A stretch of 10,515 nucleotides of DNA from Bacillota bacterium (GTDB lineage: Bacteria; Bacillota; Bacilli; Bacillales_B; DSM-18226): positions 1 through 10,515 of the forward strand of contig JAKACS010000056.1 in assembly GCA_021821235.1 (NCBI GenBank), written 5' to 3'. The translations under genes and the position numbers were made by a program. Positions 2,287 to 5,257 of this stretch are shown in pieces. Numbering within the stretch: position 1 is the stretch's first letter; the number at the start of each line of letters is the position of its first letter. The notes under the pieces are model-generated. The model saw only the letters and a list, made by a program, of their open reading frames with translations. It did no database searches and had not been told where the DNA came from.

Positions 2287-3075
2287 TTAATCGCCGCTAA
2301 ACACATCGAAAATGCCACGGGCGATGCTACCTTCATCTTTCGCACCGCCGGGGCTTGCGGCTGCAAAGACGCGGCTGGCGAGCCGGCTGAATGGGAGCGA
2401 CTGGATCCAAACCGAACCGGGACCTCTTAACGTCGCGAAGAATAAGCCTTCACCACCAAACAACGCTGTTTTTACTCCGCGCACAAACTCGATATCGTAG
2501 CTGACATTGTTGGTTATCGCGACTAAACAGCCAGTATCTACGCGAAGTTGTTGGCCGGGAAGGAGCTCTTTCCGGGTAATCGTTCCTCCGGCATGGACAA
2601 ATGCAAGTCCGTCACCTTCAAGCTTTTGCATAATAAAACCTTCACCGCCAAAGAATCCGGCACCAATCTTTCGCTGGAACTCAATGCCGATTGAGACTCC
2701 TTTCGCCGCAGCAAGGAAAGAATCCTTTTGGCAAATGATTTTTCCGCCAAGTTCACTTAAGTCCATTGGAATAATTTTTCCTGGATAAGGAGCAGCGAAA
2801 GACACATGCCTTTTAGCGTTTCCCCTGTTCGTGAAGGTAGTCATAAACAAACTTTCTCCAGTTAAAACCCTCCTGCCGGCACTAAATAGCTTCCCCATTA
2901 GACCGCCGTCGCTGCTTCCTGAGCCATCGCCAAAAATGGTTTCCATATGTATATCATCTTCCATCATCATAAAGCTGCCAGCTTCACCCACAACGGTTTC
3001 CTGCGGGTCAAGTTCAACTTCGACAAACTGCATATCATCGCCATATATTTTGTAGTCAATCTCGTGATTGTTCAT
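2287..3075 (-). CDS. AIM24 / TIGR00266 family protein
   Basis: A 262-residue soluble protein of the AIM24 (DUF124, TIGR00266) family. It is glycine-rich and beta-rich, with no signal peptide or transmembrane segment. Two related blocks carry the family's FGGEG motif, FFGGEGF at residues 141-147 and LFGGEGL at 205-211, consistent with an internally repeated beta structure; a GDGSGSSDGG loop lies near residues 49-58. The yeast namesake is mitochondrial; the role of bacterial members is not established. The start ATG (3073-3075) is supported by AAAGGAGTG just upstream on the minus strand (3083-3091). A sigma-A promoter lies at 3128-3156 and a hairpin terminator at 2240-2269, so it appears to be a single-gene unit. 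Frames on the opposite strand are shadows. Confidence 0.85.
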   Translation of the reverse strand: MNNHEIDYKIYGDDMQFVEVELDPQETVVGEAGSFMMMEDDIHMETIFGDGSGSSDGGLMGKLFSAGRRVLTGESLFMTTFTNRGNAKRHVSFAAPYPGKIIPMDLSELGGKIICQKDSFLAAAKGVSIGIEFQRKIGAGFFGGEGFIMQKLEGDGLAFVHAGGTITRKELLPGQQLRVDTGCLVAITNNVSYDIEFVRGVKTALFGGEGLFFATLRGPGSVWIQSLPFSRLASRVFAAASPGGAKDEGSIARGIFDVFSGD

Positions 3076-3182: not shown

Positions 3183-3303
3183 CAGAAAAGCCGCTTGTTT
3201 CGAAAAACAAGCGGCTTTTACGAAATTGAGGCGAATAACCACACTCCACATTGTGTGTTCCAAAAAGGACTGTTATTCGGCTTACACAATCAGCTCATCG
3301 CTC
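3183..3303 (-). ncRNA. Candidate small RNA with possible pseudoknot (unrecognised family)
   Basis: A minus-strand transcript of about 120 nt is bounded by its own extended -10 promoter (3308-3337) and an intrinsic terminator (3186-3219). Two perfect helices can be drawn in it. In RNA order, AUUGUGU (3290-3284) pairs with ACACAAU (3256-3250), and CGAAUAAC (3279-3272) pairs with GUUAUUCG (3239-3232). These cross, so they form either an H-type pseudoknot or two alternative folds. A short UCC-U5-GGA hairpin can sit between them, and a CACAC/GUGUG hairpin competes with the first helix. No start codon with a ribosome site opens a useful frame in it. It matches no RNA family I can name (not 6S, SRP, tmRNA, RNase P, T-box or purine riboswitch). 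It could act in trans, or be a regulated leader of the AIM24 gene, but that gene has its own promoter beyond the terminator. Confidence 0.55.
3186..3219 (-). terminator. Intrinsic terminator of the candidate small RNA
   Basis: AAAAGCCGCTTGTTT (3186-3200) pairs perfectly over 15 bp with 3205-3219 around the tetraloop. On the minus strand the stem is followed by a T-rich tail (TTTTCTGTTTGT); on the plus strand the tail is poor, so the minus strand is the likely direction. Confidence 0.8.
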
Positions 3304-3307
3304 AAAT

Positions 3308-3337
3308 AGTATACCATGGTTACTAAGTTATAAGCAA
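3308..3337 (-). promoter_or_regulatory. Extended -10 promoter of the candidate small RNA
   Basis: On the minus strand, TTGCTT (3332-3337), an 18-base spacer and TATACT (3308-3313) are preceded by TGG, giving an extended -10 element (TGnTATACT). The predicted start is near 3301-3303. It points away from the SulP gene, whose own promoter lies at 3424-3452. Confidence 0.6.
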
Positions 3338-3487: not shown

Positions 3488-5257
3488 ATGTTCTTTGACA
3501 GAAGGTTTAGTCAATATTCTTTAAGTAGTTTTCAAAAGGATGTTCTTTCAGGCTTGATTGTTGGAGTGATTGCGATTCCATTAGGAATGGCGTTTGCAAT
3601 TGCCTCGGGAGTGAAGCCGGAGTATGGAATTTACACCACCATTGTTGCCGGAATTTTGATTTCGCTTTTTGGTGGATCGAAGTATCAAATTGGTGGACCA
3701 ACCGGCGCATTTATCCCCATATTATTTGGAATTGTCATGACCTATGGGTATGAAAATCTCTTGATTGCTGGTTTTTTAGCTGGAATTCTGTTGCTGTTAA
3801 TGGGTGTATTTAAGTTGGGGGCCTTGATAAAATTTATTCCCCGCCCAGTGACGATCGGTTTTACCGCGGGGATTGCTGTCACCATATTTACCGGACAGAT
3901 CGCCAGTTTTCTCGGTTTAATCGGTTTAAAGAAACATGAAGATTTCTTTATGAATATGAAGGAAATCTTCCTCCACATCGGAACGATTAATTTTTTTAGT
4001 GTGTTAACAGCCATCATCTGTTTAGTTTCCATATTGATTACACCGAAAATCGCACCGAAAATACCGGGGCCGCTGATCGGACTGATACTTTCTACTGTAA
4101 TTGCGACAATTTTCTTTCCTGGGCAAGTGGCAACCATCGGAACGAGTTATGGAGAAATCCCAAATTCCCTTCCGCATTTCCGCATGCCAACCATCGATAT
4201 TGAGCTAATTAGTAAGCTATTGCCGTCTGCCTTCGTGATTGCGATGCTGGGGGGAATCGAATCGCTCCTTTCCGCAGTTGTGGCTGATGGAATGACAAAC
4301 AGCAGACATAATAGCAATAAAGAATTGATTGGCCAAGGGATTGCTAACATGATTGCACCATTTTTTGGGGGAATCCCTGCGACAGGAGCAATTGCGCGAA
4401 CGGCGACAAACATCAAAAATGGTGCTGTTTCTCCTGTTTCAGGGGTCATTCACAGCATTGTCGTTTTGCTTGTCTTGATATTTTTCGCCTCATACGCATC
4501 GTATATTCCGTTAGCGAGCATGGCACCAATCTTAATGGTGGTGGCATGGAATATGAGTGAATACCATGTTTTTTCACATATTTTAAAAACAAAAACGAGT
4601 GATTCTTTAGTTTTATTGGTGACATTTTTATTAACTGTTTTTGTTACGCTTACAGTCGCAGTCGAGGTAGGGTTAGCCTTGTCTGTTGTTCTGTTTGCAA
4701 AGCGAATGAGCGATATTATGATAACAGAAAAAGCATTGCCGAACCATGAACATAAGCATAAAAAGATGCAAACCCAGATGGTTACTGATACACATGATTG
4801 TCCGCAAATCAGTATTTTTAACGTTGAAGGCCCGCTGTTTTTTGGGGCGGCGCAGACGTTTGCGAGGACGATTATGAACACCATCGATTATCGGCCAAAA
4901 ATCCTCTTACTGCGAATGAGCAAAGTACCCTTTATGGACACAACAGGTGAGGCAAATCTTGCAAGCATTGTGAACCATTTTTCGAAAAATGGTATAGTAA
5001 TTTTATCTGGAGTTAATCCGCAGCCGGAAACGGTATTGAAAAAAACGGGTTTATACGAAAAAATCGGGGAAGAACATTTCTTTGATCATACGGGCGAAGC
5101 GCTTGATTTTGCCCTTGCCAAAATAGAGCGCAGCAAATGCATCGGCTGCAAGCATTTTGCTTTTCATGAATGTGAGAAGCTTTCCCAATCAGAAGGAGTT
5201 GAAATCTCAACGAAACCGACACCAACATACTGGAGTGTAGAGGAGATGATGGATTGA
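3488..5257 (+). CDS. SulP-family anion transporter with STAS domain and Cys-containing tail
   Basis: A 589-residue SulP (SLC26-type) membrane transporter. Residues about 15-425 are the multi-span core with the conserved GGPTGAFIPIL segment in the third helix region, GFTAGIAVTIF, and GGIPATGAIARTATN later on. Residues about 439-545 form a cytoplasmic STAS domain (PQISIFNVEGPLFFG, then FMDTTGEANLAS). The last 40 residues carry Cys551-X2-Cys554-X7-Cys562 with His556 and His560, an uncommon tail that could bind a metal or react with thiol stress. SulP proteins carry sulfate, bicarbonate or related anions; the substrate here cannot be read from sequence. The start ATG follows a modest ribosome site AAGAAGGG (3475-3482). 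Its stop overlaps the TTG start of the ArsR gene, so the two are co-translated under the promoter at 3424-3452. Confidence 0.9.
   Translation: MFFDRRFSQYSLSSFQKDVLSGLIVGVIAIPLGMAFAIASGVKPEYGIYTTIVAGILISLFGGSKYQIGGPTGAFIPILFGIVMTYGYENLLIAGFLAGILLLLMGVFKLGALIKFIPRPVTIGFTAGIAVTIFTGQIASFLGLIGLKKHEDFFMNMKEIFLHIGTINFFSVLTAIICLVSILITPKIAPKIPGPLIGLILSTVIATIFFPGQVATIGTSYGEIPNSLPHFRMPTIDIELISKLLPSAFVIAMLGGIESLLSAVVADGMTNSRHNSNKELIGQGIANMIAPFFGGIPATGAIARTATNIKNGAVSPVSGVIHSIVVLLVLIFFASYASYIPLASMAPILMVVAWNMSEYHVFSHILKTKTSDSLVLLVTFLLTVFVTLTVAVEVGLALSVVLFAKRMSDIMITEKALPNHEHKHKKMQTQMVTDTHDCPQISIFNVEGPLFFGAAQTFARTIMNTIDYRPKILLLRMSKVPFMDTTGEANLASIVNHFSKNGIVILSGVNPQPETVLKKTGLYEKIGEEHFFDHTGEALDFALAKIERSKCIGCKHFAFHECEKLSQSEGVEISTKPTPTYWSVEEMMD
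5239..5245 (+). promoter_or_regulatory. Ribosome-binding site deciding the TTG start of the ArsR gene
   Basis: AGAGGAG lies eight bases before TTG 5254-5256. The next in-frame ATG (5266) is 20 bases from it and too far, so the TTG overlapping the SulP stop codon is preferred. Confidence 0.65.

Follow-up and report, generated by a model that had tools for sequence, protein, structure and literature searches.

Identification of a BsrF gene

The minus strand of the window (the whole stretch of 10,515 nucleotides that was analysed) contains a full-length member of the Rfam family RF01411, BsrF; the RNA is an ordinary member of an already known small RNA (sRNA) family. Judging from sequence, the stretch very probably represents the BsrF gene of a Bacillaceae-like species, whose sigma-A promoter would produce a free, trans-acting RNA some 119 nt long. 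When the whole window was scanned with Rfam 15, the match spanned 3190–3301 on the minus strand and all 113 positions of the model (1–113), with a score of 84.6 bits against a cut-off of 50 (E = 5.3e-15), and BsrF was the only family detected at gathering level. The sequence-only reading had matched the RNA to no known family and had named a hit to a described RNA family as one outcome that would speak against it; the Rfam search that it proposed for this region returned such a hit, over the full length of the model. Five other models near the stretch (SSRC34_2, trpB motif, RybB, ncr952 and mir-1251) were rejected, each scoring under its own gathering score. The fold energy of the stretch was −41.3 kcal/mol (z = −3.8), which was equalled by none of 200 dinucleotide shuffles, and no listed ORF of at least 60 aa lies over it.

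The gene, its signals and its neighbours were placed as follows, the signals being read from the sequence:

3183–3301, minus strand: BsrF small RNA of about 119 nt, beginning at the first G and running to the terminator tail; its exact ends are deduced from the promoter and terminator
3332–3337, minus strand: weak −35 element TTGCTT, with an 18-base spacer
3308–3316, minus strand: extended −10 element TGGTATACT; of 98 distinct upstream regions, 85 have TGn ahead of the −10
3292–3301, minus strand: nearly invariant 5' end GCGAUGAGCU, the same in 98 of 99 copies
3186–3219, minus strand: intrinsic terminator, a 15-pair stem with a 4-base loop; the stem has TTTT at its end, after which comes CTGTTTGTGA
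2287–3075, minus strand: gene for an AIM24-family protein (PF01987), the downstream neighbour, outside the RNA
3488–5257, plus strand: gene for a SulP-type transporter with a STAS domain (PF00916, PF01740), the divergent neighbour, outside the RNA

A minus-strand unit with an extended −10 promoter, an RNA of about 120 nt, a 15-bp terminator and no reading frame had been described before the family was known, and all of these elements are indeed in the sequence. Among 98 distinct BsrF upstream regions, 89 had a −10 element with 5 or 6 of 6 matches, and only 44 had a −35 element with at least 4 of 6. The promoter site at 3308–3337 was absent from the list produced by a simple promoter scan of the window. 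After GCGAUGAGCU, GUAAG followed in 73 and AUAAG in 24 of 97 distinct RNAs. A terminator scan yielded one terminator-like site, compared with 1.3 in shuffles, and was by itself not significant; a T-rich tail followed the RNA in 91 of the 99 BsrF copies. On the far side of the transporter gene, a frame for an ArsR-type regulator (PF01022; 5254–5577) overlapped the end of the SulP–STAS gene by 4 bases, if its TTG start is right.

Secondary structure of BsrF

The fold was examined in an alignment of 66 of the 99 available copies (the window copy and 98 loci), redundancy being removed at a similarity score of 0.90, such that a copy was kept if it scored no higher than this to any copy already kept. 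Each large genome search supplied loci only for its 30 best matches, so that the 98 relatives are mostly best-scoring loci and lean toward the Rfam model; one aligned copy, L094 (46.8 bits), was under the gathering score. The Rfam fold places four helices in the window copy:

3285–3290 with 3225–3230, minus strand: P1, 88.8% paired, with both-sided changes in 4 of 6 pairs
3272–3279 with 3232–3239, minus strand: P2, 90.3% paired, with both-sided changes in 7 of 8 pairs
3267–3269 with 3259–3261, minus strand: P3, weakly conserved, 50% paired
3253–3257 (CACAC) with 3240–3244 (GUGUG), minus strand: P4, 93.7% paired, with both-sided changes in 5 of 5 pairs
3246–3251, minus strand: conserved P4 loop AUGUGG, found in 74 of 97 distinct RNAs

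The relatives strongly backed this nested fold. Over P1–P4, 241 doubly changed cells were counted in the 66 relatives, compared with 73.8 (sd 14.3) after shuffling, a value reached in none of 500 shuffles. Paired cells amounted to 85.3%, as opposed to 72.3% in shuffles and 33–46% when the helices were slid, and 19 of the 22 pairs had changes on both sides. P4 was the hairpin with the best support; its loop variants among the 97 distinct RNAs were AUGUGA (10), UUGUGG (10), ACGUGG (2) and GUGUGG (1). In the window copy, P1 contained one U-U mismatch, which is common to 34 of the 97 distinct RNAs in all. The calculated energy of P1–P4 was −14.6 kcal/mol and that of P2–P4 −15.3 kcal/mol, with P1 pair probabilities of at most 0.43; P1 is thus weak in this copy, owing to the mismatch and the lack of an energy gain. 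In a divergent BsrF lineage from genomes of 2.6–2.9 Mb (L172, L173, L174, L176 and L178), P1 was formed by GUCUAU/GUAGAC in place of UUG/CAA, a compensated replacement, and CGCG stood in place of CGCC.

The sequence-only reading had proposed two perfect helices that cross each other, implying a pseudoknot or a two-state switch, and had suggested that both be tested for covariation. Its 8-bp helix (3272–3279 with 3232–3239) is perfect by sequence, corresponds to P2 of the Rfam fold and covaries. The CACAC/GUGUG helix, perfect as well, had been taken as a competitor of the crossing helix; it proved to be P4, a nested hairpin in its own right. Only the 7-bp helix, AUUGUGU (3284–3290) with ACACAAU (3250–3256), would cross P2, and it would replace P1 and P4. 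This helix is perfect in the window, and 81.3% of its cells were paired in the 66 relatives, but shuffles gave 80.5% and reached the observed value in 65 of 500 cases. Its covariation score was likewise not above that of shuffles (0.291 and 0.286, respectively; reached in 138 of 500), and doubly changed cells numbered 4, compared with 6.0 in shuffles. A looser pairing test on the 97 distinct RNAs, which chooses the highest-scoring among four registers without allowing for relatedness, was more favourable, with 5.79 of 7 pairs for a segment's own partner and 5.63 for shuffled ones, reached by 1 of 1000 shuffles; all seven pairs were possible in 26 of the 97 (in some register, with G-U allowed). 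Forcing the crossing helix gave a core energy of −18.3 kcal/mol as against −19.6 kcal/mol, so that energy alone does not exclude it, but its bases had a predicted pair probability of about 0.14, compared with 0.72 for P4. The helix also needs the 5' arms of P1 and P4, both of which covary with their own partners. By eye, L096 and L109 had equal P4 arms, and in L096 the U-U of P1 was replaced by G-C while the crossing helix lost two pairs; the adjacent P1 pair changed from G-C to A-C in the same copy, which qualifies this comparison. Since the crossing helix shows no covariation above shuffles while P1 and P4 covary strongly, a pseudoknot or switch is unsupported, and we consider it very unlikely. 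The sequence-only reading had also named absence of covariation in either helix as an adverse outcome; with P2 covarying, that outcome was realised only in part. Most likely, two conserved segments happen to be complementary in part, and the crossing helix is a by-product of this.

A short helix closing the fold outside the Rfam structure, formed by GCG/CGA of the 5' end with a conserved CG after P1 (3297–3301 with 3219–3224), is possible and is offered as a lead only. Runs of at least 3 pairs occurred in 48 of 53 distinct linkers, a count that ignores relatedness, compared with 45% in shuffles. In a control, other 5-mers of the same letters performed as well or better (GCGAT ranked 5th of 60), and the 5' side hardly varies.

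Distribution and genomic context

BsrF was widespread in the searched Bacilli. It was found in 175 of 193 genomes from the family of the Neobacillus rhizosphaerae genome (G001, locus L001), in 92 of 146 genomes drawn from the family of the Virgibacillus genome (G017, locus L019; 81 over the cut-off) and in 54 of 398 genomes sampled from the class as a whole (53 over the cut-off). Stricter filters applied whenever more than 40 genomes were searched. Among 28 genomes reached through AIM24 loci (from 29 of the best 80 such loci), 14 contained RF01411, 13 of them over the cut-off. Each matching genome in these searches had exactly one BsrF match. B. subtilis was the only one of 14 control genomes to match, and phage and plasmid records gave no BsrF match at 1e-5.

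The neighbouring genes differed among copies. Domains found in ten chosen neighbours were tRNA_bind, tRNA_SAD, YflT/DUF2382, HD, DEAD, Rv2525c-like, TetR, GDSL lipase, HSP90 and Sulf_transp (Pfam). In L155, a tRNA_bind gene lay on the opposite strand after BsrF, which fits the csaA side of the B. subtilis locus, CsaA being a tRNA_bind-domain protein. SulP genes neighboured BsrF in 13 of the 99 loci, including the window and L158, and a Sulf_transp gene (PF04143, named on L098) adjoined it in L096, L098 and L106; the presence of sulfate or sulfur transporter genes beside BsrF is perhaps due to chance.

That the RNA might instead be a riboswitch-like leader belonging to AIM24 had been considered as an alternative to an independent gene. 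An AIM24 gene does lie directly downstream of BsrF on the same strand in the window and in 11 other loci, but AIM24 occurred in only 17 of the 99 loci, the window included, and in 5 of these it was located upstream. Other BsrF copies precede genes on the opposite strand, among them the tRNA_bind gene in L155. In the window, moreover, the terminator separates BsrF from AIM24 and is followed by a candidate promoter with matches at 9 of 12 positions, although the count of such sites was about that in shuffled sequence. Lacking a fixed position before the gene, the AIM24 leader was rejected and is, in our estimate, highly improbable. Because its neighbours differ across copies, BsrF is best read as an independent gene. 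The stand-alone small RNA gene with its own promoter and terminator that the sequence-only reading preferred is therefore favoured here too, BsrF copies elsewhere adjoining differing genes.

Comparison with BsrF of B. subtilis and regulation

In B. subtilis, BsrF (also named SR2) is an sRNA located between yobO and csaA, is enriched 7.75-fold with Hfq and is stated to be activated by CodY (PMC3574147). It was detected in B. subtilis on a tiling array (PMC2784878), and PMC4634765 lists a B. amyloliquefaciens FZB42 homolog. PMC3574147 places BsrF among sRNAs with identified mRNA targets, yet its entry there gives CodY as the regulator and no target. PMC4634765 describes SR1 as "a.k.a. BsrF" with AhrC as its target; SR1 and BsrF are listed as separate RNAs in PMC3574147 and PMC2784878, and the equation of the two looks like a mix-up. 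The word bsrF was absent from PMC7430163 and PMC8216469.

The window copy resembled B. subtilis BsrF in its full-length family match, its stand-alone gene and the presence of each of the characteristic parts, namely the nested helices P1, P2 and P4, the terminator, the 5' GCGAUGAGCU and the AUGUGG loop. On sequence grounds only, its own promoter and intrinsic terminator were also present. The two loci differed in their neighbours, which are AIM24 and SulP genes in the window, as opposed to yobO and csaA in B. subtilis (PMC3574147).

The regulation of BsrF by CodY, the original paper on which is reportedly that of Preis et al. from 2009, was not reflected in a clear enrichment of CodY boxes over mononucleotide shuffles across 99 BsrF upstream regions. 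With at most 3 mismatches, 1 box was found where 3.7 were expected, and with at most 4 mismatches, 29 where 23.8 were expected. The best match upstream of BsrF in the window had 4 mismatches in the 15 positions of the consensus. Words enriched in the upstream regions were all weak; GAAGGG occurred in 15 of 85 nonredundant upstream regions, compared with 2.2, and perhaps represents Shine-Dalgarno sites of divergent genes.

Putative recognition surface and partner

Once made from the putative sigma-A promoter, the free BsrF RNA of about 119 nt would act in trans, a mode of action that the genomic context and the terminator make the most likely one. A scaffold of P1, P2 and P4 would hold out the 5' GCGAUGAGCU, the UAAG internal loop and the AUGUGG loop. 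Conservation suggests that these exposed parts form the contact surface, which would touch a partner, probably target mRNAs and perhaps together with Hfq.

Possible targets were sought through AGCTCATCGC, the exact complement of the BsrF 5' end, which had 89 sites in 10 genomes, compared with 23 for a reversed control. Of these, 83 were examined; the other 6 lie at BsrF genes, as do 4 of the 83. Two more sites (L222 and L241), which a loose regular expression labelled as BsrF, are located apart from the single BsrF match of their genomes. ORFs were considered if they encoded at least 60 aa and lay over a site on either strand or started at most 150 bases after it. No ORF family recurred at the exact 10-base sites in at least 3 of the 10 genomes (83 sites), and ten ORF clusters each joined two genomes. 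Many of the sites are antisense to long ORFs, so that codon usage may explain their excess.

Like the trans-acting sRNAs RoxS/RsaE and FsrA of Gram-positive bacteria, BsrF is a small stand-alone transcript with a promoter and terminator. RoxS and FsrA use C-rich stretches, whereas BsrF is without a universal pyrimidine loop: the P3 region has a CCU-type pyrimidine stretch, which could pair with Shine-Dalgarno sites, in only 55 of the 97 distinct RNAs. A nearly invariant 10-base 5' end is not usual in an sRNA whose mRNA targets change, and it would fit a single partner as well. A variant of the favoured explanation is that BsrF is a structured RNA with one conserved binding partner, either a protein or an RNA, in place of changing mRNAs to pair with, which we regard as conceivable but rather doubtful. 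Conservation of the ten 5' bases, of the P4 loop and of the UAAG internal loop would agree with it, as would the exact target sites without recurrence and the patchy CCU-type stretch. Nothing direct stands against a single partner; the association of BsrF with Hfq in B. subtilis, which base-pairing sRNAs can show, and its listing among trans-acting sRNAs in PMC3574147 lean the other way. Only tentatively might BsrF differ from an ordinary mRNA-pairing sRNA, with the 5' GCGAUGAGCU, the UAAG loop and the AUGUGG loop jointly recognised by a single partner, protein or RNA, that is conserved across many Bacilli; the 5' end would perhaps be closed in part by the short helix of GCG or CGA with the CG following P1.

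With action in trans on target mRNAs as the preferred reading, the locus described here adds one more species to those with a copy of this known sRNA. Its tested hairpins, its spread in Bacilli and its near-invariant 5' end provide clear points for mutational work on BsrF.
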